Source of the DNA: Frigoribacterium sp. VKM Ac-2836
GTDB taxonomy: Bacteria; Actinomycetota; Actinomycetes; Actinomycetales; Microbacteriaceae
DNA: 64,000 nucleotides
NCBI RefSeq assembly: GCF_013248995.1
Contig: NZ_JABRPK010000002.1
Coordinates: 558,001 to 622,000 of the forward strand
Direction: 5' to 3'
This document shows, piece by piece, positions 5,481 through 29,128 of this stretch. The notes beneath the pieces are model-generated. The model ran no database searches and was not told the origin of the DNA. It was given only the letters and a program-made list of their open reading frames with translations. Within the stretch, counting starts at the first letter, position 1. Each line of letters opens with the position of its first letter. The position numbers and the translations under genes are program-made.

Positions 5481-6643
5481 CGCTTGTCTCCGCTCTGCTG
5501 CCCGTCGGACAGCTGGTCGTCGGCCGCGTTCGTGGCCTGCGGGGTCGAGGGGTCGGGGTGGCCGGGAAGATCGCGTCCCGCGACCCCGCCCGTGGACGAG
5601 GAGGCGCTGGTCGTCTCGGCCGCGCGGGCCGCGTCCTCGCGGATCACCTCTTCTTCGAGTTGCTCGAGCGCGGCGTCGTCGAGCAGCGAGTCGTCGCCCA
5701 GGTCGGTGTCGTGGTGCGCGCCGAGGTAGGCGTCGATGACCGCCTGGTCGTCCATGACCGTGTCGGCCGGGCCCTCGGCGACGATGCGCCCCTCGGCCAT
5801 GACGATCACCCAGTCCGAGATGTGGCGGACCATGTGCATGTCGTGCTCGACGAAGAGCACCGTGGTGCCGTCGTCGCGCAGGCTCTGGATGTGCCCGAGC
5901 AGCGATTGCGTCAGCGCGGGGTTCACGCCGGCCATCGGCTCGTCGAGCATGATCATGGCCGGGTCGCTCATCAGGGCGCGGGCCATCTCGAGCAGCTTGC
6001 GCTGGCCGCCCGACAGGCTGCCGGCGAAGTCGTCCTTCTTCTCGAGCAGCTTGAACCGGGCGAGCAGGTCCTCTGCCTTGAGTTCGATCTCGCGTTCGCG
6101 CTTCCGCCAGAGCGGCGCGACGATCGCGACGAAGAAGTTCTCGCCGGGCTGGTCCTTGGCACCGAGCAGCATGTTCTGCATGACGGTCAGCCGCGAGAGG
6201 GCCTTGGTCAGCTGGAACGTCCGCACCATTCCCGAGCGGGCGACCTTGGCGGCGCCTACGTTGCCCATGGCCTTGCCCTCGAAGACCCACTTCGCGACGC
6301 CGGCACCGCTGCGCTTGAACGCGGTGGGGGCCGACGAGGCCTTGTCGAACCCGGTGAGCAGGTTGAAGAACGTCGTCTTGCCGGCGCCGTTCGGGCCGAT
6401 GAGGGCCGTGATGGCGCCGCGCTGCACCTCGACGTGTCCGACGTCGACGGCGGTCATGCCGCCGAAGCGTCGCACGACGTTGTCGACCGTCAGGATCGGG
6501 TCGGGCTTGGCCGAGCCAGGGGTCTTCTCGACCGTGGCGAGCTTGGAGCGCAGCACGGTGCGGTCGTAGTCGTACCCTTCGCGACGCGGCCGGGTGCTGC
6601 CGCTCGCCGTGAGGGGCGTGGTGGTGCTCGAGGTGTCAGACAC
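5477..6643 (-). CDS. livG: ABC transporter ATP-binding protein LivG, with long acidic C-terminal tail
   Basis: A 388-aa ATPase, compared with about 255 in typical LivG. Walker A GPNGAGKT lies near residue 83-90, the signature is SLSGGQRKLLEMARAL, Walker B is MIMLDEPMAGVNP, and FVEHDMHMV supplies the H-loop histidine. An N-terminal extension of about 45 residues is rich in Ser/Thr and Arg. From about residue 306 an 80-residue hydrophilic tail, first acidic then Ser/Pro/Gln-rich, has no match I recognise. It overlaps livF by 4 nt and livM by 8 nt in the operon livH-livM-livG-livF. Confidence 0.93.
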   Translation of the reverse strand: MSDTSSTTTPLTASGSTRPRREGYDYDRTVLRSKLATVEKTPGSAKPDPILTVDNVVRRFGGMTAVDVGHVEVQRGAITALIGPNGAGKTTFFNLLTGFDKASSAPTAFKRSGAGVAKWVFEGKAMGNVGAAKVARSGMVRTFQLTKALSRLTVMQNMLLGAKDQPGENFFVAIVAPLWRKREREIELKAEDLLARFKLLEKKDDFAGSLSGGQRKLLEMARALMSDPAMIMLDEPMAGVNPALTQSLLGHIQSLRDDGTTVLFVEHDMHMVRHISDWVIVMAEGRIVAEGPADTVMDDQAVIDAYLGAHHDTDLGDDSLLDDAALEQLEEEVIREDAARAAETTSASSSTGGVAGRDLPGHPDPSTPQATNAADDQLSDGQQSGDKR

Positions 6644-7619
6644 TGAACGCCAACTCCTTCTTCTTTCCGAGGATGCCCTGTGGCCTGAAGATGATCAGCA
6701 GCATCAGGGCGATGCCGACGAGGACGTACGAGAACTGTTCGGCCTGCTGCCCGTTCATGATGCTCGACGGGATGAAGTCGCCGGCGAGGGTGCGCACCAG
6801 CAGGCGGGTCACGAAGAACAGGATCGCGCCGAGGACGGGCCCGAAGACCGTCGCCGCGCCTCCCAGCAACAGCGCGGTCCAGATGAAGAACGTCATGGAG
6901 CGGCCCATGCTGTCCGGCTGCACCGAACTCGGCAACACGTAGATGATGCCCGCGAGCGATCCCATCAGGGCACCGAGCACGAGTGCCTGCATCTTGTACG
7001 AGTAGACGTTCTTGCCGAGGCTGCGCACGGCGTCCTCGTCCTCGCGGATGCCCTTGAGCACGCGGCCCCACGGGCTGCGGCTGAGCAGGAACACCAGCAG
7101 GCAGAGCAGGGCGACGATGCTCCAGCCGACGATGCGGATCCACCAGCCGTTGACGCCGTTGTTCTCGTAGCTGAACCAGAGGATCGTGGTCTGGCCGTCG
7201 GGAAGCGGCGAGAGAGCCGTGAAGGCCTCGCGATACGAGGCGCCGGGGATGCCGTTCGATCCACCGGTCGTCGAGGTCAGGACGCTCGAGCGACCGACGT
7301 ACCGGATGATCTCGGCAGAACAGATGGTGACGATGGCGAGGTAATCGCCCCGCAGCTTCAGGGTCGGCACACCGAGGATCAACGCGAAGACGAGCGAGCA
7401 GACCAGGGCGATGATGACCGCCAGCCCGAGCGGCAGGCCGTTGCTGATCGAGATGGCGAAACCGTAGGCGCCCAGCAGCAGGAACGCCGCCTGGCCCATG
7501 TTGATCAGTCCGGTGAAGCCGAAGTGGATGTTCAGGCCGATCGCCGCGATGGCGAAGGCGGCCGTCGTGGGCGCGAGGGCCTCGGCGCTCAGCGCCCGGA
7601 GGAGTTCGATGAAGTACAT
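6636..7619 (-). CDS. livM: ABC transporter permease LivM
   Basis: A 327-aa inner-membrane permease with about nine to ten hydrophobic segments. Family hallmarks are NIHFGFTGLINMGQAAFLLLGAY, the EAA-like PWGRVLKGIREDEDAVRSLGKNVYSYKMQALVLGA, and the conserved C-terminal FRPQGILGKKKE. It pairs with LivH to form the pore. It begins 12 nt after livH ends and overlaps livG. Confidence 0.95.
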   Translation of the reverse strand: MYFIELLRALSAEALAPTTAAFAIAAIGLNIHFGFTGLINMGQAAFLLLGAYGFAISISNGLPLGLAVIIALVCSLVFALILGVPTLKLRGDYLAIVTICSAEIIRYVGRSSVLTSTTGGSNGIPGASYREAFTALSPLPDGQTTILWFSYENNGVNGWWIRIVGWSIVALLCLLVFLLSRSPWGRVLKGIREDEDAVRSLGKNVYSYKMQALVLGALMGSLAGIIYVLPSSVQPDSMGRSMTFFIWTALLLGGAATVFGPVLGAILFFVTRLLVRTLAGDFIPSSIMNGQQAEQFSYVLVGIALMLLIIFRPQGILGKKKELAFSV

Positions 7620-7631
7620 GGTCGTGTCCCC

Positions 7632-8990
7632 TTAGCCCACTCGTTCTTTTCGCCCGAAGATGCCCTGTGGTCTGAACACGAGGATCAGGATCAGGATCAG
7701 CAGGGCCGTCGCGTACTTGAAGTCGCCGGGCAGCCAGATGTTGGTCAGCTCGACGATGATTCCGATGATCAGCGAACCGACCAGGGCGCCGAAGGCCGTG
7801 CCCAGGCCTCCCAGGGTGACGGCGGCGAAGATCAGCAGCAGGATCTGCAGGCCGGTCATCCAGTTGACGCCGTTCAGCACGAGGCCGAGCATGACGCCCG
7901 AGAGCCCCGCGAGTCCGGCGGCCAGCGTCCAGACCAGGCGGATGATGCGGTCGACGTCGATGCCCGAGGCGGCGGCCAGGGCCGGGTTGTCCGACACGGC
8001 TCGCGTGGCGCGACCGGTGCGGGTCTTGAGCAGGAAGAGCCCGGTGCCGACGAGCACGACCACCGAGATCGCCATGGCGACGTAGGACTGCACCGTCAGC
8101 GTGACGCCCAGGAAGTCCACGGTCGTCGGGTTGGCCCGGTCGATGCGGACGGTGCCCGCGCCGTAGAAGTACTGGAACGCGTACTGCAGGGCGATCGAGA
8201 GGCCGATGGTCACGATCATCAGCTGCGTCAGGCTGAGCCGGCGTTTCCGCAGGGGTTTCCAGATCGCGAGGTCCTGGAGGTATCCGGTCGCCGCGCAGAT
8301 CACCGTGCTCAGCACCGCGGCCAGGATCAGGGGCACCCCGATCGAGGTGAACGAGTACGCCAGCAGACCGCCGAGGGTCACCTGCTCACCGTGCGAGAAG
8401 CTGCTGAGGCCCGTCGTGCCGTAGATCAGCGAGAGGCCGATGGCCGCGAGGGCGAGCAGCAGGCCGAGCCTGATGCCCGAGGCGAACTGCTGGGCGAAGC
8501 GGTCCCAGTTGAAGCTCGTGGCGGCGGCCTCGCCGCTCGTGGCACCTTCTTCTGCGGTCAGGGCGAAGAGGGCGCTCGCCGTGGCCCCGAGGTTCACGTT
8601 GACGGTGCGCTCGGCGTTGTCGGCGTTCACCAGGAACTGGCCGTCGGGAAGCGTGTCCTGGTCGACCGTGACGGTGTAGCTGCCGGCCTCGGTCACCGCG
8701 ATGCTCCAGCGGCCGGTGTCGTCGGTGGTCGCGGTCTGCTCGTCGCCGGCGGCGTTCGTCGCCGTCACGTCGACGCCCGAGGCGGGCTCGCGATCACTGT
8801 CGTTGATGGTGCCCTGGATGCACCCGGTCGCCGTGTCGGTCGTGCAGGCCGCGGCAGCGGCGTGGGCGGACGTCGGGACGAACGCGGTCGCCATGAAGGT
8901 CGCCAGGAGTCCGAGCAGTACGGCGGAGGCCGTCACGATCAGGGACTGCCGCAGCCGGGGCCGCGACGCGATGGTCGTCGAGAGTCTCAC
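7632..8990 (-). CDS. livH: ABC transporter permease LivH fused to an N-terminal secreted beta-sandwich domain
   Basis: A 452-aa protein from GTG at 8990, preceded by a strong AGGAGG. Residues about 15-45 form a signal/anchor helix ending SAHA. Residues about 57-115 resemble a carboxypeptidase regulatory-like domain (GCIQGTINDSDREPASGVDV, then TDDTGRWSIAVTEAGSYTVTV). The LivH permease occupies about 165-452, with IGLSLIYGTTGLSSFSHGEQVTLGG, the EAA loop TGRATRAVSDNPALAAASGID and C-terminal FRPQGIFGRKE. Typical LivH is about 300 aa, so the extra 150 residues are an extracytoplasmic module that may interact with the binding protein. Upstream in-frame codons to 9191 lack any start signal. Confidence 0.92.
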   Translation of the reverse strand: MRLSTTIASRPRLRQSLIVTASAVLLGLLATFMATAFVPTSAHAAAAACTTDTATGCIQGTINDSDREPASGVDVTATNAAGDEQTATTDDTGRWSIAVTEAGSYTVTVDQDTLPDGQFLVNADNAERTVNVNLGATASALFALTAEEGATSGEAAATSFNWDRFAQQFASGIRLGLLLALAAIGLSLIYGTTGLSSFSHGEQVTLGGLLAYSFTSIGVPLILAAVLSTVICAATGYLQDLAIWKPLRKRRLSLTQLMIVTIGLSIALQYAFQYFYGAGTVRIDRANPTTVDFLGVTLTVQSYVAMAISVVVLVGTGLFLLKTRTGRATRAVSDNPALAAASGIDVDRIIRLVWTLAAGLAGLSGVMLGLVLNGVNWMTGLQILLLIFAAVTLGGLGTAFGALVGSLIIGIIVELTNIWLPGDFKYATALLILILILVFRPQGIFGRKERVG

Positions 8991-10851
<1,861 letters not shown>

Positions 10852-10870
10852 ACCACAGCCGTCCCAGAAG

Positions 10871-10928
10871 CGGGCGAGTTCGTCGCACACGGTCGTCCCT
10901 GGGCGACCGGTCACGACGAACTCGCCCG
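10871..10928. repeat. 58-bp intergenic palindrome (type B hairpin) after guaB
   Basis: Arms CGGGCGAGTTCGTCG (10871-10885) and CGACGAACTCGCCCG (10914-10928) pair perfectly over 15 bp. Nested inside, GGTCG (10891-10895) pairs with CGACC (10904-10908). The layout is shared with 12004-12063. It may terminate guaB transcription but lacks a T-tract. Confidence 0.85.
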
Positions 10929-11053
10929 TTCTCGTCGGACGTCGTCGAACGGGCCACCGGACGTCTCGTCCCCCACCCAGGAGGCGCGGGTCGCCATCCA
11001 CAGAAGACGTCCGTCCCTCTCGTCGCCGGGCCGCGTTCCGGCACCGTGGTGTC

Positions 11054-12091
11054 GTGCTCATCACGCCGCGCCACCCCGATCTCCTGCTGAGCCGCGACCT
11101 GGCGGCACTGGGCCTGGACGACGCGCGGCTGCGAGTCGCCTGTCGGCGCGGCGACCTGGTCCGCGTCCGTCGAGGCGCCTACGTCGAGGCCGGCCGCTGG
11201 GCCGCGCTGGGGATCGAGGGGCGGTACCGGCTGACCGTCGTCGCAGCCGCCGCCTCGTGCCGGACCCGGGTGCTCGTCAGCCATGTCTCGGCCGCGGTGC
11301 TGCACGGTCTGCCGCTGGTGGGGGCTCCGCCCCGCCGGGTGCACGTCCTCGTCCCTCCTGCCGGCGGAAGTCGGCAGGAGCACGGGTTCGTCAAGCACGC
11401 ACGCGACGACCACGAGCGCCCCGACGCCCTCGACGTCGAGGGCGTGCACGTCACGCCCCTCGACGCGACCATCGTCGACGTCTGCCTGACCGAGCCCTTC
11501 GTCCGGGCCGTCGTGATGACGGACCACGCGCTGCACCAGGGGGCGGTCACGCCCGAGTCGCTCGCGACGGAGTTCGCTCGGCGAGGCACTCGACGAGGCT
11601 CGAAGAAGGTGGCGGCCGTACTCGAGTTCGCGACTCCCCTCGCCGACCGCCCACTCGAGTCGATCAGCCGGGTCGGGTTCCGGCTGCTCGGGCTGCCGGA
11701 CCCCGTTCTGCAGCACCCGCTCTTCGACGAGACGGGGCGACGGGTGGCGATCGTCGACAACTGGTGGCCCGGGTTCGGAGTCGTCGGCGAGTCCGACGGC
11801 CGAGTGAAGTACACCGATCCCGAGATGATGGCCGGCCGCACGACGGCCCAGGTGGTGATGGACGAGAAGGACCGCGAGGACGACATCCGGGCCCTGCCCG
11901 AGGTGCGTGGCTTCGCTCGCTGGGGCTGGGACGTCGCCCTCGACGTCCGCCGCCTCGGTCCCGTTCTCGCTCGCGCCGGCGTCGTGCCCCTCGGACCGAC
12001 CGGACGGGCGACTTCGTCGTCGACGGTCGAGAACGACCGCCCGGGATCGACGAAGTCGCCCGTTCCCGCGCCGGGCGGGCCCGCCCGGTAA
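11054..12091 (+). CDS. AbiEi-like antitoxin-domain protein with nuclease-fold-like C-terminus, orphan
   Basis: A 345-aa protein. The N-terminal about 70 residues (PDLLLSRDLAALGLDDARLRVACRRGDLVRVRRGAYVEAG) are the winged-helix module typical of AbiEi-family proteins and transcription-regulator-like proteins of actinobacteria. The C-terminal half (VAIVDNWWPGFGVVGESDGRVKY, then EKDREDDIRALPEVRGFARWGWD) resembles the Vsr/DUF559-like endonuclease fold common in this group. No AbiEii toxin gene is adjacent, so a toxin-antitoxin role is not supported. The last about 25 codons run through a type B palindrome, suggesting the repeat extended the ORF. GTG 11054 is the only reasonable start. Confidence 0.7.
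   Translation: MLITPRHPDLLLSRDLAALGLDDARLRVACRRGDLVRVRRGAYVEAGRWAALGIEGRYRLTVVAAAASCRTRVLVSHVSAAVLHGLPLVGAPPRRVHVLVPPAGGSRQEHGFVKHARDDHERPDALDVEGVHVTPLDATIVDVCLTEPFVRAVVMTDHALHQGAVTPESLATEFARRGTRRGSKKVAAVLEFATPLADRPLESISRVGFRLLGLPDPVLQHPLFDETGRRVAIVDNWWPGFGVVGESDGRVKYTDPEMMAGRTTAQVVMDEKDREDDIRALPEVRGFARWGWDVALDVRRLGPVLARAGVVPLGPTGRATSSSTVENDRPGSTKSPVPAPGGPAR
12004..12063. repeat. 60-bp palindrome (type B hairpin) inside the 3' end of the AbiEi-like gene
   Basis: Arms ACGGGCGACTTCGTCG (12004-12019) and CGACGAAGTCGCCCGT (12048-12063) are perfectly complementary over 16 bp; GGTCG (12025-12029) and CGACC (12034-12038) form the inner stem. Relative to 10871-10928 one stem pair has flipped from G-C to C-G, so structure is conserved although sequence changed. 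Confidence 0.85.
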
Positions 12092-22998: not shown

Positions 22999-25419
22999 AT
23001 GACGATCGTGCTCGAGCCCTCTGACGCTGCCGGCGGTTCCGGCGACCCCCTGACCGCCGGTCTCAACCCCCAGCAGAAAGAGGCGGTCGAGTACCGCGGG
23101 CAGTCGCTGCTGATCGTGGCCGGTGCCGGCTCGGGCAAGACCAGCGTGCTCACCCGTCGCATCGCCGGGCTGCTGGCGACGCGCGAGGCGTGGCCCAGCC
23201 AGATCCTCGCCATCACCTTCACCAACAAAGCCGCGGCCGAGATGCGCGAGCGCGTGGCGCACCTCGTCGGTCAGGCCGGCGAGGGCATGTGGATCAGCAC
23301 GTTCCACTCGGCGTGCGTGCGCATCCTGCGACGTGAGGCCGAACAGTTCGGCTTCACCAAGAGCTTCACGATCTACGACTCCGCCGACTCGCGGGCGCTG
23401 CTCAAGCGCATCCTGAAAGAGCTCGACGCCGACCAGCTCGGGCTCACCGTCAGCATGGCGTCGGGCAAGATCTCCAAGCTCAAGAACGAGCTCAGCGACG
23501 TCGAGTCGTACTCGCGCCAGATCAACATGAACGACCCGCAAGAGGTCATGTTCCTCGAGATCTTCCGGCAGTACACCCGCGAGCTGCAGCGGGCCAACGC
23601 CTTCGACTTCGACGACCTCATCGCGCAGACCGTCTACCTGTTCCGGGCCTTCCCGCATGTGGCCGCTCAGTACCAACGCCGGTTCCGGCACATCCTGGTC
23701 GACGAGTACCAAGACACCAACCACGCGCAGTACTCGCTCATCCGCGAGCTGACCCGACCCGTCCAGGCCGACCTCGTCGACGAACTCGAACGCGGCGGCC
23801 AGTTCGTCCAATCGATGCGCGACGGCAGCGGTGGCATCCCCGGGGCGTCGCTCACCGTGGTCGGCGACTCCGACCAGTCGATCTATGCGTTCCGTGGTGC
23901 CGACATCCGCAACATCGTCGAGTTCGAACGCGACTTCCCCAACTCGAAGGTCATCTTGCTCGAGCAGAACTACCGCTCGACGCAGAACATCCTCGACGCG
24001 GCCAACGCGGTCATCTCGAACAACTTCGACCGTCAGGCCAAGAACCTCTTCACCACGGTCGGTGCCGGCAGCAAGATCGTCGGGTTCACCGGCTACACCG
24101 GGCACGACGAGGCCCAGTTCGTCGCGGACGAGATCGCGGCTCTGCACGAGTCCGGCACCGACTACAAAGACATGGCCGTCTTCTATCGCACCAACTCGCA
24201 GACGCGTGCTCTCGAAGAGATCTTCATCCGCTCGGCCATCCCGTACCGCGTGCTCGGCGGCACCAAGTTCTACGAGCGTGCCGAGATCAAGGACGCCATG
24301 GCGTACCTGATCACCGTCGCCAACCCGGCCGACCCGCTCGCGCTGCGGCGCATCATGAACGTGCCCAAGCGCGGCATCGGTCCGGCGACCGAGACCGCGA
24401 TGCAGCGCTGGGCCGACACGAACGAGGCGCCGCTGCGTGACGCGATGCGCAACGCCGGCCAGCTCGGTCTCGGGCCGAAGGTGACCGGTGCGATCACGGG
24501 TCTGGCGAAGCTGCTCGACGACGTGCAGGCCACGGCGGCGACCGCGCCCGTGCACGAGATCCTGTCAGCGCTGATCGCGGGCAGTGGCCTGGTCGAGGTG
24601 CTGCGCGCGTCGCGTGACCCGCAGGACGAGGCCCGTGCCGAGAACATCGACGAGCTCGTCGCGGTCACGAAAGAGTTCCAGAAGAACAACCCCGACGGCA
24701 CGCTGCTCGACTTCCTCACCGAGGTCACGCTGGTGGCGGCGGCCGACGACCTCGACGACACGAGCGGCACGGTGTCGCTGATGACGCTGCACACCGCCAA
24801 GGGGCTCGAGTACGAGGCGGTGTTCCTCACCGGTGTCGAAGAAGACCTGTTGCCGCACCGTATGTCGGCCAGCGAGCCCGGTGGCCCGTCCGAAGAGCGG
24901 CGGCTGTTCTACGTGGGCATCACCCGCGCCCGCCAGCGGCTGTTCTTGTCGCTCGCGATGACGCGGGCGCAGTTCGGCGAGGTCAACGTGGCGATGCCGT
25001 CGCGGTACCTGCAAGAGATCCCCGTCGAGCTGATCGACTGGAAGCAGTCGCCCGGCATGGCGAACAGCCGCGGCGGCACGCAGCCGAGGGCGCTCAACGC
25101 CCGTCGCGAGGGTGGCGACGGCAACCGGGGTGCGACGCCGCGGGCGTCGGGCGGCTACGGTTCGGGCAGCTACGACCGGGCCACGGCGGCGGCGAAGACC
25201 AAGCCGAAGACCGAGTGGGCCAACCGGGTCACGGGCACCGTCCGCGACAACGGCGACATGGAGCTCGAGGCCGGCGACCGCATCTCGCACGTCGACTTCG
25301 GCGAGGGCCGCGTCATGGCCGTCACCGGCATCGGCGCCCGCCGCATCGCCGAGGTCCTCTTCGACGGCGCCGGCCGCAAGAAGTTGCTGATCAAGGTCGC
25401 GCCGATTGAAAAAATTTAG
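22999..25419 (+). CDS. pcrA: ATP-dependent DNA helicase PcrA/UvrD
   Basis: An 806-aa superfamily 1A 3'-5' helicase for nucleotide excision repair, plasmid replication and RecA removal. Motifs in order: LNPQQKEAVEY (Q), AGAGSGKTSVLTRRIA (I), AITFTNKAAAEMRERV (Ia), VDEYQDTNHAQY (II), VVGDSDQSIYAFRGAD (III), ILLEQNYRSTQNIL (IV), MTLHTAKGLEYEAVFLTG (V) and VGITRARQRL (VI). The C-terminal Tudor-like module (GDRISHVDFGEGRVMAVTG to KKLLIKVAPIEKI), which binds RNA polymerase in characterised PcrA, is intact. The last codons are abruptly A-rich: the gene's end coincides with the left edge of the accessory island, so its final two or three codons may be supplied by the insertion. Confidence 0.97.
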   Translation: MTIVLEPSDAAGGSGDPLTAGLNPQQKEAVEYRGQSLLIVAGAGSGKTSVLTRRIAGLLATREAWPSQILAITFTNKAAAEMRERVAHLVGQAGEGMWISTFHSACVRILRREAEQFGFTKSFTIYDSADSRALLKRILKELDADQLGLTVSMASGKISKLKNELSDVESYSRQINMNDPQEVMFLEIFRQYTRELQRANAFDFDDLIAQTVYLFRAFPHVAAQYQRRFRHILVDEYQDTNHAQYSLIRELTRPVQADLVDELERGGQFVQSMRDGSGGIPGASLTVVGDSDQSIYAFRGADIRNIVEFERDFPNSKVILLEQNYRSTQNILDAANAVISNNFDRQAKNLFTTVGAGSKIVGFTGYTGHDEAQFVADEIAALHESGTDYKDMAVFYRTNSQTRALEEIFIRSAIPYRVLGGTKFYERAEIKDAMAYLITVANPADPLALRRIMNVPKRGIGPATETAMQRWADTNEAPLRDAMRNAGQLGLGPKVTGAITGLAKLLDDVQATAATAPVHEILSALIAGSGLVEVLRASRDPQDEARAENIDELVAVTKEFQKNNPDGTLLDFLTEVTLVAAADDLDDTSGTVSLMTLHTAKGLEYEAVFLTGVEEDLLPHRMSASEPGGPSEERRLFYVGITRARQRLFLSLAMTRAQFGEVNVAMPSRYLQEIPVELIDWKQSPGMANSRGGTQPRALNARREGGDGNRGATPRASGGYGSGSYDRATAAAKTKPKTEWANRVTGTVRDNGDMELEAGDRISHVDFGEGRVMAVTGIGARRIAEVLFDGAGRKKLLIKVAPIEKI
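25401..25412 (+). repeat. Left 12-bp direct repeat (candidate attL) inside the pcrA end
   Basis: GCCGATTGAAAA, coding for the P-I-E-K of the pcrA terminus. An exact copy in the same orientation lies at 28236-28247. Composition shifts from strongly G+C-rich to much more A+T-rich exactly here. Confidence 0.65.
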
Positions 25420-25703
25420 GCCCAAAGGGCTCGGTCAAGTTCGAGTCACTCGATTCACAACCTCTGGGGTCGAATTGAGTTTGGTTGACGATGAATATGA
25501 GGACTTTCTTGCCGGTCTAGAGCCGTTTCACGCTTCGGGGCTGCCCGAAGTTCCTAGGCAATAGAAGCCATCAGTAAGGCCGCATTTTATTTTATTTCCG
25601 AGCTCGAACGGCGCGTTCTGCTTTGACTGCGAGCCCACTGACTCCCTAACGTGCTGACGCGGAGTGGTGCGTTGTCGATAGCGGCTACAAGTTGCGCGCG
25701 GAG
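25420..25703. other. A+T-rich intergenic stretch, no gene recognised
   Basis: Between the pcrA stop and the end of the DUF4145 gene. A 29-codon frame beginning TTG at 25475 exists but has no ribosome-binding site or recognisable product. No tRNA, terminator stem or inverted terminal repeat was found; a TTCGAGTC resembling a tRNA T-arm has no cloverleaf around it. Confidence 0.6.
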
Positions 25704-26333
25704 TTAGCGAGATTCGCGCTTAGCTCGAATACGTTCTAAGCGAGCGGGGTCTTGAAACACCTCGGTTAAGACCGACGCCATAAGAGCGAGAATCTCTTCG
25801 GAGTCGATCGCATCTGGAACTACGTCGATGTCACCATGAGCCATATCGTTCCCGGCGTAGCGGACTTCGTGCGCTTGATCAGCGACCGCTCGCCTGATAA
25901 GTTGATTATCCTTCATTGTATTGATTTTCTTGGACAGGTCGCCGTTCGAAATGCCTTGCGCCTTGGCTGTCGCCTCGATAACTGTTCTAGCCATCAGAAT
26001 CGAGGCCATGTGGTTCCCGACGGAGGCACTCGAGTAAGCCTCCCGTGCCGCCCTACCTATTGCCTCAGGGACGTCCACCACTTCGGGCGCATCGGCGGCT
26101 GTGGGGAGCCATTGAATATGAGTCGCTTTCTCAATTTGACGACTCGATGCGTGGAGTTCAATCTCGTCGCCGCGCGGGCTGGGATTGCCGCCCGAACCCT
26201 CACCGATTGACAGTCGCGAGCAGAAGTCGCAACTTACAGCGACACGGGTACGTTCGCCATTCGAATGGACTTCCCCCCAACGCACTGTGACGTGGCTGTG
26301 CTTGTGGCAATAAGGGCAAAGGATGGCAACCAT
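25704..26333 (-). CDS. Zinc-ribbon DUF4145 (HEPN-like) protein
   Basis: A 209-aa protein, second gene of the island operon. The N-terminus carries a treble-clef or ribbon-type metal site, CPYC near residue 6 and CDFC near residue 35. A linker of about 50 residues follows. Residues about 90-190 fit DUF4145: EAYSSASVGNHMASILMART is the first helix pair with the conserved IEATAKAQGI, then LSKKINTMKDNQLI, and the family signature RYAGNDMAHGD. DUF4145 is generally regarded as HEPN-related, and the Arg...His pair could be an RNase-type site, but this is inference. The gene starts 62 nt after the 528-aa gene stops. Composition is foreign to the genome. Confidence 0.75.
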   Translation of the reverse strand: MVAILCPYCHKHSHVTVRWGEVHSNGERTRVAVSCDFCSRLSIGEGSGGNPSPRGDEIELHASSRQIEKATHIQWLPTAADAPEVVDVPEAIGRAAREAYSSASVGNHMASILMARTVIEATAKAQGISNGDLSKKINTMKDNQLIRRAVADQAHEVRYAGNDMAHGDIDVVPDAIDSEEILALMASVLTEVFQDPARLERIRAKRESR

Positions 26334-26395
26334 GATGTCATTGTGCCTGAAGCGGAATGAAATCGGTCGATGCCCAACTACAGCTCTTTCTGCCG

Positions 26396-27982
26396 CTAGT
26401 TCGTAGACTTATTCGGGACCAGGTAATGCGGTCCGATGAGGCCGACATGTACCTTTTTCGTCGTTCCGCCTGTGTCGTCGTGGAAATACACACGAGGCGC
26501 CAGGCTTCCGCCGCCTTCAGAAATCTTCAGGTGCGCCAGCATTTTGGCTTCGCCTGATGCGTCGACCTTCTTATCGACCTTGAAAACTCGGGTGCGAATG
26601 AGCTTCTCACTGTTCTGAACCGACTCGCTCTCTGTCATCGCAAGCTTCTTGCTGGTGGCTGGCCATCCGAGTAGTGGGCCTGAAGCGCACCATTCCCAGA
26701 ACCCACCCTTGTCCCATCCGGCAGCTCGATCTTCGGCGTAGGCAGCAAGCGCACGAAGCCCTCGCCACGTCTTGTTCCCCCAGTTGTAGGCCTCTGGTGA
26801 GCTATCTATATCTTCGAGTTCTCTGATCGCTGAATCCGGGAGTGCGAGCCAGTCCGATAGATAAGCCTGCGCGGCCATCGCGGACTCCGAGGCGTCTTGT
26901 ACTGCGTCTGGAGTAGAGGATGCCTCCTCGTGTTGAGTGCCCCACAAGAGGTCGGCGTGCCCCTGGTCGATCAGCACCTTCTTTAGGCGTGCAAGATGCC
27001 CGTTGGCGCTAGACAGTTCTCGCTCGACAGAGCTCTGCTCGTCCCGGGCAAGCTCGGACGCAAAATCCCAGTTCTCACGCGCTTCCACTAGCGACTGTGC
27101 TGAGATCATCCCGTTCGAAGAACCAGACGGAATGCTGCCCTGAACGTCAAATAGGCGGAAAGCTTCCGGTACTCGACGCCTAGTCGAAAGTTGAGCTACG
27201 GAGTACACGATCCGGTCTATCGTCGACTGTCGTGCCTGCTCCAAACGCGACCCAAGATAATAGCGGTGCTGCCAACCATCCGAGTCCCCCACGACTACGC
27301 CTGGCGCGTAAATACGCACTCCGCCGTCCCAGATAGCGAGTGATCCAATGTGTCGTCGGAACTCCACCGCGGCGCTTAGCCCCAGTGTGATCACGACGGC
27401 AATGCCTTCGACACGTGCCGCAATTATGTCCGCAGTTCGAAGCCAAACGTCGGCGTGAGGGCCGGTCGGCTCGGCGCAAACGATGATCGGAAGGCTTCGG
27501 GTCGGATCTGCGAGCAAGTCTGTCAAGATGGCAATTCCGTTGGCAGGTAGGTCGAGAGGCCCCAGGAGGAGACGGCTGCCACCAAGACGAGGCTTCTCGA
27601 CCGCAGCGAGCAGTTCATGAACGACTTTTGGCCGGCCGACTGAGACTCGACGTGCTAGATCGTCGGAAGACATGCTCAACTCGACAAGTGTGTGCACGCC
27701 CTTCTGGTCCGCGATGACACGGATCACCGTCGCCCACTCGGTCGGGTCGCCGGGAACTTCGTCTGTGGCTACGATTTCGAAGGCTTCGGGAGTGACAGTT
27801 CGGAGTGCGACAGTTCTTATGCGCCCCTGCGACACCTCGAAGGTGCTTTCTCCTTCTGGCAGAGGCTCCGGATCAGGTCGATCCTGAATCCACTTAGCGG
27901 CGCAATCCTTGAGGGCTTGCGTGACCGGTTCTCTGTCTCCTTCCGTTGTGTCCGACCACACGGCTCGATAAAGAACACTCAT
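26396..27982 (-). CDS. 528-aa protein of unknown function, first gene of the pcrA island
   Basis: I do not recognise a named family. The N-terminal about 110 residues (MSVLYRAVWSDTTEGDREP) are alpha/beta. Residues about 120-270 look like a Rossmann-type or nucleotide-pocket domain: LPIIVCAEPTGPHADVW, then IIAARVEGIAVVITLGLSAA and AIWDGGVRIYAPGV. A coiled-coil-prone stretch follows (about 295-335, ELARDEQSSVERELSSANG). The C-terminal about 60 residues form a compact beta-rich module containing AHLKISEGG, PRVYFHDDTGG and KKVHVGLIGPHYLVPN. No Walker A, HNH or PD-ExK motif is evident. An AGAGGA sits 9 nt before the ATG. Sensor-plus-effector pairing with the DUF4145 protein is my inference. Confidence 0.7.
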   Translation of the reverse strand: MSVLYRAVWSDTTEGDREPVTQALKDCAAKWIQDRPDPEPLPEGESTFEVSQGRIRTVALRTVTPEAFEIVATDEVPGDPTEWATVIRVIADQKGVHTLVELSMSSDDLARRVSVGRPKVVHELLAAVEKPRLGGSRLLLGPLDLPANGIAILTDLLADPTRSLPIIVCAEPTGPHADVWLRTADIIAARVEGIAVVITLGLSAAVEFRRHIGSLAIWDGGVRIYAPGVVVGDSDGWQHRYYLGSRLEQARQSTIDRIVYSVAQLSTRRRVPEAFRLFDVQGSIPSGSSNGMISAQSLVEARENWDFASELARDEQSSVERELSSANGHLARLKKVLIDQGHADLLWGTQHEEASSTPDAVQDASESAMAAQAYLSDWLALPDSAIRELEDIDSSPEAYNWGNKTWRGLRALAAYAEDRAAGWDKGGFWEWCASGPLLGWPATSKKLAMTESESVQNSEKLIRTRVFKVDKKVDASGEAKMLAHLKISEGGGSLAPRVYFHDDTGGTTKKVHVGLIGPHYLVPNKSTN

Positions 27983-28235
27983 GATGCTGATCCTCTGAGG
28001 TTAAAGTCGAAGTTGTCTACGCCGACAGCATGACCATAGGATCAAACTCCGTAGAGGGCGAGCCTCAACTCCTACGAAGCAGGAACGACGGAGCTTGGAC
28101 GGTCCGCTGGACGCGCCAGGGATTCTTCCGCATCCTATGGCGGGCTAAGGCGCGGCGTTGCGATGGCCATCGAGCTCGTCCTTTCCTGTGCCGCCATCGC
28201 GGTGCGCCCACGGGACTTTGTTCGAGAGGCTAGGT

Positions 28236-28247
28236 GCCGATTGAAAA
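28236..28247 (+). repeat. Right 12-bp direct repeat (candidate attR)
   Basis: GCCGATTGAAAA, identical to and in the same orientation as 25401-25412. Flanking bases differ on both sides, so exactly 12 bp are shared. G+C-rich sequence resumes shortly after it. Confidence 0.65.
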
Positions 28248-28383
28248 GGATCTCTGGCACGCTCGTCAGTCGCCTGCCGGGCAGAAGCCTTGTTCTATGG
28301 AGAACAGCTGTGCGCCTCTTCGCGCACCACGCCTCCTTTGTTCGGATGACGAAGGCGACCGGCGGGGGACGAGCCGTGACGCG

Positions 28384-28420
28384 ACGACGCCCCCGTCGCG
28401 AGCTGCGGCGGGGGCGTCGT
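28384..28420 (-). terminator. Terminator of the leftward SnoaL-like/acidic protein pair
   Basis: ACGACGCCCCCG (28384-28395) and CGGGGGCGTCGT (28409-28420) form a perfect 12-bp stem 20 nt beyond the stop of the acidic-protein gene. Confidence 0.85.
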
Positions 28421-28440
28421 GAGACGGTGGTGACCTCAGG

Positions 28441-28674
28441 TCACTCGGTCTCGTCGAGGTCGATGTCGTCGCCCTCGAGGTCGTTCGAGGCGTACTCGGG
28501 CGAGCCCTCGCGGGGCGCGCCACCGGTCGGGCCGTCGTTGCCCTCGCCGACGCCGGGGAAGACCGTCTCGCCAGCAACCGCGTCGTTGGTTGCGATCTGC
28601 TCGGACTCGGCGAACTCGTCGGCCTGGTCGTAGGGCTGCTCGCCCGATGCTGCTGGGGTGTTCGTGTCGCTCAT
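28441..28674 (-). CDS. Small acidic protein of unknown function
   Basis: A 77-aa protein, very rich in Asp, Glu and Gly, without hydrophobic segments and probably disordered (EYASNDLEGDDIDLDETE at the end). An AGAGGA sequence precedes the ATG, and a strong terminator follows the stop, both of which support a real gene. It lies 43 nt downstream of the SnoaL-like gene and may be co-transcribed. No family recognised. Confidence 0.6.
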   Translation of the reverse strand: MSDTNTPAASGEQPYDQADEFAESEQIATNDAVAGETVFPGVGEGNDGPTGGAPREGSPEYASNDLEGDDIDLDETE

Positions 28675-28717
28675 GATGCGTCCTCTCGAAGGTGGTGCGG
28701 GGTGGTGGGGGAGCGGC

Positions 28718-29128
28718 TCAGGCGAGGCCGAGCTGCTGCTTCATGCCGGCCTCGTCGGTGGCGCCCCAGCGCTCGACGAGCAGGCCGTCCTCGTCGAAGC
28801 GGCCGACCTGGATGCCACGGACCGTGAACGACTTGCCCGTGGGCTCCGCGCCCTGGAACGTGCCGGTGTGCGTGCCCGAGATCGTGAAGACCGCGGTGAC
28901 GTTCTCGTCGTCGGCGACGAGCGTCTCGACCTGCAGGTCTGCGTCGGGGAACGCCGTGAAGAACTCGGTCCAGAAGGCCTGGATGCCGGCGAGTCCGGCG
29001 GGCGCGTCGGGGGCCGGGTCGTGGTCGACGACGTCGGCGTGGAAACCCTCGCCCAGACGGTCGATCTCGCGGGCGGTCAAGATCTCGCCGAGGCGTTGCT
29101 GCGTGGCGATGTTCTTCTCTTTTGACAT
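28718..29128 (-). CDS. SnoaL-like ester cyclase family protein
   Basis: A 136-aa member of the SnoaL/ester-cyclase branch of the NTF2-like fold. Typical features are [40 protein letters not shown] and [19 protein letters not shown], giving the alpha+beta barrel pocket. Members are often small hydrolases, isomerases or stress-linked proteins and the substrate is not predictable. It is the first gene of a leftward pair divergent from sucC. Confidence 0.85.

Follow-up and report, generated by a model that had tools for sequence, protein, structure and literature searches.

How did an A+T-richer block come to lie directly behind the helicase gene pcrA of Frigoribacterium sp. VKM Ac-2836, and what does it bring with it? 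In the window, i.e., the whole stretch of 64,000 nucleotides that was analyzed, pcrA occupies positions 22999–25419 of the plus strand and codes for a UvrD/PcrA helicase of 806 aa (Pfam UvrD-helicase and PcrA_UvrD_tudor). The G+C content is 0.73 before the block, about 0.53–0.62 within it, and about 0.70 beyond, and the block is flanked by two copies of the 12-mer GCCGATTGAAAA, both on the plus strand, at 25401–25412 and 28236–28247. The left copy lies within the last codons of pcrA. The compositional switch, the repeat pair in the same orientation, and the coding of the PcrA end by the left copy had all been described in a sequence-only reading of this DNA, and all three were confirmed. These two copies are the sole exact ones in the whole 3.27-Mb genome, and no further match with at most one mismatch was found in the window (0.09 expected). 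The block carries two genes in the minus orientation, coding for proteins of 528 aa (26396–27982) and 209 aa (25704–26333). The claim of two co-directional genes and no integrase holds for what was scanned, as no integrase or other recombinase was recognized by Pfam in these two genes and a 52-aa ORF. That 52-aa ORF (25406–25564, plus strand), which starts with a TTG in the left repeat and overlaps the pcrA end by 14 bp, had been overlooked. Our reading, to which we assign a probability of roughly 60%, is that the block (about 25407–28323) is an acquired defence cassette in a core-bounded exchange site, situated between pcrA and a 77-aa ORF upstream of sucCD.

Occupancy of the pcrA–sucCD interval in the genus

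The interval downstream of pcrA was compared in 16 Frigoribacterium genomes, one per species, with the source genome designated G000 and its closest relative G011. Thirteen of them contain an ESX/type VII secretion locus at this place (proteins identified in G011), whereas the locus is absent from this place in the source window, and in three genomes of separate clades (G000, G003, and G007) unrelated cargo stands in its place. The G000 cargo consists of the HEC-07-like 528-aa protein and the HEPN (DUF4145) protein of 209 aa, and that of G007 is a Gabija system with adjacent genes (PADLOC; GajA, E 1.7e-232; GajB, E 6.8e-205). G003 carries a protein with a Pfam PIN-TPR-GreABC domain, whose defence role is read from the Pfam family alone, as the cargo had no PADLOC match. 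Lower G+C is among the features of the island cargos. A survey of the same place for other cargos, which the earlier reading had proposed, was thus rewarded in two related species. Its other expectation, an empty site with a single 12-mer joining pcrA to the sequence at 28248–28440, found no counterpart in any of the 16 genomes, as 13 have the type VII locus and three have islands.

The pcrA tree forces three separate changes (AU p 6.8e-6 for a single island clade), with every one of the island strains branching from among type VII carriers. The three acquisitions are independent, and the same flanks enclose different defence cargo, as in core-bounded defence hotspots. An event within a species is invisible here because each species is represented by one genome. 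Of the 12,050 bp of the type VII locus, G007 matches only 272 bp, and in G003 the locus was not detected. A search of six genomes for the FtsK/SpoIIIE-type ATPase of the locus gave best matches of at most 39% identity in G000 and at most 51% in G007; ATPase paralogues at similar identity also occur in genomes that carry the type VII locus. In G003, a 65% ATPase homologue is encoded elsewhere in the genome, and the locus may therefore have changed its place in this strain instead of being lost. G007 retains a fragment (aa 29–101) of a 645-aa gene from the right end of the type VII locus, a gene without a Pfam family.

All three islands are headed by a homologous ORF of 52–58 aa, located at the stop region of pcrA or within it. 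For the three pairs of these ORFs, similarity as high as that observed arose in 0, 1, and 0 of 5000 shuffles, and their DNA identity is only about 59–66%. Such divergence would suit old alternative alleles, in which the small ORF and a cargo were the ancestral neighbor of pcrA and the type VII locus took over in most lineages. We regard this as very improbable, as the cargos are unrelated and the island strains are nested among type VII carriers, and the type VII end-gene fragment in G007 already weakens this reading. In the exchange site that we favor, the type VII locus would instead be ancestral and would have been lost three times.

Conserved flanking core genes and exchangeable defence cargo are the marks of core defence hotspots, and the pcrA site shares both. 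It differs from the hotspots of Pseudomonas aeruginosa, an example of core-gene-bounded defence hotspots (PMC10250203), in the genus and the flanks, in the related small ORFs with which the cargos start at a fixed edge, and in the type VII locus that relatives have at the same place.

Edges of the block and routes of joining

The exchange site has a fixed left edge and a variable right edge. On the left, all three islands begin in the last pcrA codons. In G000, pcrA ends with the sense codons ATT GAA AAA ATT, all four of which differ at the third base from the closest relative G011, while the protein end PIEKI is kept; these four positions are among only 17 differences in the 392 bp that end at the stop codon. 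The pcrA end of the relatives is mostly CCGATCGAGAAG, and an inspection by eye, made after the fact, showed that the end departs from ATCGAGAAG[A/G]TCTA[A/G] in all three island strains as compared with one of the 13 others (G014). The last four sense codons of pcrA look as if they had been supplied by incoming DNA, an origin that we infer from the sequence comparison.

On the right, DNA homology to relatives covers 28324–28680, a flank with a terminator and the acidic 77-aa ORF (28441–28674, minus strand), followed by a 136-aa ORF (28718–29128, minus strand) and then sucCD. The flank is 89–92% identical in G011, G008, G006, and G005, and overlapping pieces of it are 91–95% identical in G009. 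In these five closest relatives tested, homology resumes at 28324 and not at 28248, directly after the repeat; for nine further genomes of the comparison, the point of return lies between 28371 and 28443. The intervening 76 bp (28248–28323) match neither these five type VII-bearing relatives nor other loci compared. The right end of the island lies near 28324 in G000, on the left side of the remnant of the 645-aa gene in G007, and close to the terminator of the 77-aa ORF in G003. An extra short G007 match at 28362–28418 is to a second copy of the terminator.

A classical site-specific island would account for part of this. A tyrosine or serine recombinase, since lost or acting in trans, would have inserted a circular DNA at the 3' end of pcrA; the two copies of GCCGATTGAAAA would be attL and attR, and the type VII locus would have been deleted separately. 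The 12-mer does stand at both ends of the block and nowhere else in the genome, the left edge is the same in three strains, and the 3' end of pcrA is recoded, as is typical of gene-end integration. Against this stand the lack of a recombinase among the scanned genes, and a right copy that has the recoded letters, unlike the pcrA end of the relatives, and lies within non-core DNA, 76 bp from core homology. Furthermore, the tested zones of G003 and G007 contained no direct repeat of at least 8 bp, and where 10-mers from the pcrA end recur in these two islands, they are located within the cargo or well away from its edge. Repeats of at least 12 bp arose between the junction zones in 7 of 5000 dinucleotide shuffles, but the repeat is suggestive rather than decisive, because an equally long one is held by 31 of 2616 zone pairs of the same size elsewhere in the window. 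With no empty site, the type VII locus in 13 genomes, mostly CCGATCGAGAAG in the relatives, the 76-bp gap, and no comparable repeat in G003 and G007, the simple attL/attR reading, and with it the duplicated core that the earlier reading had assumed, is unproven, and we consider the site-specific island unlikely. The broader part of that reading is supported: the block is compact, looks foreign, lacks an integrase among the scanned genes, is probably defensive, and occupies a fixed position where pcrA ends.

Islands at the 3' ends of genes, such as trmE, have been described (PMC8409611). The pcrA site resembles them in that the insertion lies where a conserved gene ends, and it differs in that no integrase was found, no consistent flanking repeat is present, and the right end varies.

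The varying right ends, together with the disappearance of the resident locus each time, would also fit homology-anchored illegitimate recombination, e.g., after DNA uptake, in which an exchange within pcrA would bring in DNA of an island-bearing donor on the left, and a random join on the right would delete the type VII locus in part or entirely. However, the pcrA of G000 agrees with its clade until the last codons are reached, and the exchanged pcrA tract would therefore have to be tiny, and the small ORFs, at the low DNA identity given above, would be poor homology arms for each other. This route is possible but doubtful. For the acquired cassette in an exchange site, we propose that incoming DNA with a pcrA-like 3' end and a small ORF would have joined at the pcrA 3' end, either by a recombinase in trans or by exchange at pcrA with a less precise join on the right, and that the joining would have regenerated the C-terminus of PcrA and removed the resident type VII locus.

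The small ORF and the search for similar sites

The small ORF has no Pfam or NCBIfam match, and no convincing homologue beyond the three strains was found in 398 family genomes (14 with E of at most 0.1, 11 of them weak) or in an overlapping set of 396 order genomes (20 with E of at most 0.01, 19 of them weak). Neither did IMG/VR contain a convincing homologue, plasmids gave one weak match, and one peptide pattern searched in GTDB species contigs returned only the record of G007 itself, Frigoribacterium sp. Leaf263. The weak matches that were inspected by eye (9 of 23 in the order search) were judged to be in-gene, antisense, or chance frames. The small ORF appears to be a novel part of the site. 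As the sole recognized component common to three independent exchanges, it is directly testable. One speculation, which we would not expect to hold, is that the 52–58-aa protein is translated with PcrA, perhaps binds it, and guides or licenses exchange at the 3' end as a functional element in integrase-less cassettes of a new kind, and that unrelated defence modules could thus repeatedly replace the secretion locus at a fixed left edge. To our knowledge, how defence islands move without a visible mobility gene is an open question, and it is, as far as we know, unusual that likely phage defence is traded against type VII secretion genes at a single place.

Outside the genus, copies of the pcrA 3' end were sought in 103 pcrA-downstream sequences. 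Four of the 29 matches are no more than 150 bp away from pcrA; G089 has two of them, and G105 and G142 have one each. A reversed control pattern gave four matches in all 1.03 Mb, none of them that close. We rejected the reading of these near-pcrA copies as mobile inserts: five of eight genomes of the genus of G089 share them as units of about 65 bp, and since the copies look inherited, they were not counted as support. A 12–13-bp copy in two genomes of another genus (g49) appears to sit inside a gene. Judged by G+C content and the distance to sucC, no further island of the same type was recognized in 87 family loci downstream of pcrA, of which 60 extend up to 10 kb and 27 up to 1.5 kb, several ending at contig ends and one of the 27 being G003. 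Among the literature matches listed, judged by title and the start of the abstract, no account of a pcrA 3'-end site was recognized, and none was found on type VII secretion in Frigoribacterium, HEC-07 in PADLOC, NsnC of Menshen, or TPR-GreAB with PIN.

The HEC-07-like and HEPN proteins

The 209-aa protein has two CxxC pairs (C6/C9 and C35/C38), and its residues 98–172 match DUF4145 (PF13643, E 5.3e-13) with 49.3 bits, well above the gathering score of 23.1. The catalytic R...H motif of HEPN proteins has a spacing of four to six residues, and a candidate recognized by eye, R158 and H166, has seven residues in between. DUF4145 has been classified as a HEPN family, and its fusion with a zinc ribbon has been reported (PMC3710099). 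The protein thus shares domain and zinc ribbon with known DUF4145-family HEPN proteins and differs in having a HEC-07-like partner gene.

The 528-aa protein is matched by the PADLOC models HEC-07 (E 4.1e-18) and NsnC (E 6.7e-5). HEC stands for Hma-embedded candidate (PMC12988326). The HEC-07 model PDLC04161 aligns with the N-terminal half, at profile positions 35–300 of 553 only, and a difference from HEC-07 is the downstream gene for the zinc-ribbon DUF4145 protein. The C-terminal about 100 residues match NsnC, a component of the Menshen system. The likeness to Menshen is limited to this part, as the two scanned proteins of the island have no match to NsnA or NsnB. The NsnC match recurs in all 11 C-terminal pieces examined, that of this protein included. 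HEC-07-like relatives are encoded in 10 other genomes among 298 of the family, and an alignment with two longer relatives showed about 24% identity to the 528-aa protein. Structure prediction gave mean pLDDT values of 42.0 (single-sequence model) and 40.6 (eight-sequence model) and a mere hint that the C-terminal domain may adopt a RelE-like toxin fold. The leucine-rich-repeat likeness of residues 54–213 among the top fold comparisons was not trusted.

The pair could act in the style of abortive infection, read from 27982 towards 25704, in that the HEC-07-like protein would sense or respond to infection and the zinc-ribbon HEPN protein would act as an RNase. That both form one system is inferred from a single locus, because no DUF4145-like neighbor was recognized by eye in the short flanks of 11 other HEC-07-like loci, one of them in the same genome. 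The pcrA 3' end of Frigoribacterium may yield new defence genes, of which this pair would be an example. The island DNA had no match among plasmids, and the 528-aa protein (P0002) had no relatives in phage records. At the protein level, it has relatives in eight plasmid records, none covering 80% of the protein, and in IMG/VR at nine loci when an alignment was used for the search but at none with the single protein. Relatives of the 209-aa protein (P0001) were found in six plasmid records and, weakly, in one phage record.

A type VII locus behind pcrA, probably replaced more than once

In 13 of the 16 Frigoribacterium genomes, which are all that the search of the genus returned, the DNA after pcrA is homologous to a roughly 12-kb locus of G011, the closest relative of our strain (G000), with 5,661 to 12,049 of its 12,050 bases matched, G011 itself counted. 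The proteins of this type VII secretion locus include FHA, WXG100 and FtsK/SpoIIIE members and a borderline T7SS-signal match, and in 12 of the 13 carriers the interval could be followed as far as the 77-aa ORF and sucCD, the stretch of G004 ending earlier. The carriers are not all independent, because the pcrA rows of G005 and G006 are identical. The island strains G000, G003 and G007 lack the type VII locus at this place and share a related small ORF, and they represent three independent changes: the pcrA tree groups G000 with G011 (95/95), G007 with G014 (100/98), and G003 with G012, G013 and G015 (100/100), which forces three changes, and a single island clade is rejected (p-AU 6.8e-6). 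What is new is the small ORF common to the three islands, together with the probable replacement, more than once, of the type VII locus.

In G003 and G007, A+T-rich cargo fills the interval and is followed by the right flank common to the other genomes. The G003 cargo is a protein of 1234 aa that has a PIN-TPR-GreABC domain and no PADLOC match, and that of G007 is Gabija GajA/GajB (PADLOC). With different cargo at the same place, the general idea of the sequence-only reading, an exchange site for defence genes, is well supported. The GajA of G007 (L055, 830-3448) contains a long alanine/aspartate and then an alanine/glycine dipeptide run near its N-terminus.

The resident type VII locus would have been lost. 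When 280 aa of its ATPase were searched against six genomes, the best match was 39% in G000, a paralogue that G011 also has, and 51% in G007, present in G014 too; G003 holds a 65% homologue elsewhere in its genome. Residues 29-101 of a 645-aa gene from the right end of the locus remain in G007, so that the locus was probably once present there.

A second insertion place was observed within the same interval, where about 0.6-4 kb of extra DNA is flanked by whole or partial copies of the 77-aa ORF or of its terminator. It lies right of the type VII locus in G009 (L058/L070), G011 (L056/L069), G013 (L063/L075) and G015 (L061/L073); in G007 (L055), a duplicated terminator surrounds about 1.3 kb.

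A fixed left edge and a variable right edge

The 12-mer GCCGATTGAAAA does occur at both ends of the block, at 25401-25412 and, in the same orientation, at 28236-28247; allowing one mismatch, the window has no other match, and the 3.27-Mb genome has no further exact copy. The DNA between the two copies is A+T-richer and carries two minus-strand genes. As an island signature the repeat is only suggestive, because a 12-bp repeat was reached in 7 of 5000 shuffles of the junction zones, and 31 of 2616 real zone pairs within the window carry one as long. Its proposed role as a duplicated attachment core is not well supported: besides these controls, the right copy sits 76 bp inside non-core DNA, and G003 and G007 have no repeat of at least 8 bp between the zones tested. 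Possibly, this site received an earlier insertion that has since decayed, and the right copy is its left end.

All three islands share a fixed left edge and end at different positions on the right. Right-side homology starts at 28324 for G011, G009, G008, G006 and G005, and further right for the other nine genomes compared. On the left, pcrA (22999..25419, plus strand) shows 17 differences between G000 and G011 over its final 392 bp, stop codon included. Four of them fall on the third positions of its four final sense codons, so the pcrA end was probably acquired together with the island, with the protein end preserved. By eye and after the fact, this end differs from ATCGAGAAG[A/G]TCTA[A/G] in all three island strains and in one of the 13 others (G014). 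No recombinase was found among the two genes and the 52-aa ORF of the island; joining at the pcrA 3' end may have used a recombinase in trans, or exchange at pcrA with imprecise joining on the right.

Genes of the island

The earlier account correctly gave two genes and missed a third, a 52-aa ORF that overlaps pcrA and has its TTG start at 25406 within the left repeat. Homologues directly follow pcrA in G003 and G007; for the three strain pairs, 0, 1 and 0 of 5000 shuffles scored as high, and no convincing homologue beyond these strains appeared in family and order genomes, GTDB species contigs, IMG/VR or plasmids.

The N-terminal half of the 528-aa protein (27982-26396, minus strand) matches PADLOC HEC-07 (E 4.1e-18) and its C-terminus NsnC (PADLOC), a model that every one of the 11 C-terminal pieces scanned, including that of this protein, also matches. 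Of 299 family genomes, 11 have a match to the protein, the genome of the window among them. A poor model hints at a RelE-like fold of the C-terminus, for which a search for sequence support found none. One of the family matches is a second HEC-07-like gene of G000 (C3:288452-290320, about 650 aa), which by eye is almost identical to a gene of G010.

The 209-aa protein (26333-25704, minus strand) combines two CxxC pairs with a DUF4145 domain, a HEPN family described as fused or adjacent to restriction and defence genes (PMC3710099). Gene order suggests an operon of both genes; by eye, no DUF4145-like neighbour was recognised in the short flanks of 11 other HEC-07-like loci. The cargo would act in defence, with the putative HEPN RNase as effector.

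The pcrA 3' end in other genera

Two to three tandem copies of the pcrA 3' end occur in the genus of G089, in G105 and in G142 (L148 150-500; L210-L214 for the genus of G089; L124; L166), with hairpins ahead of the copies by eye. In five of eight genomes of the G089 genus they are arranged as hairpin-bearing units of about 65 bp; G105 and G142 each have one extra copy, 42-64 bp downstream of pcrA. In one family member, G063 (L186), a 246-aa gene directly follows the pcrA stop, which from its sequence we take to resemble DUF3800.
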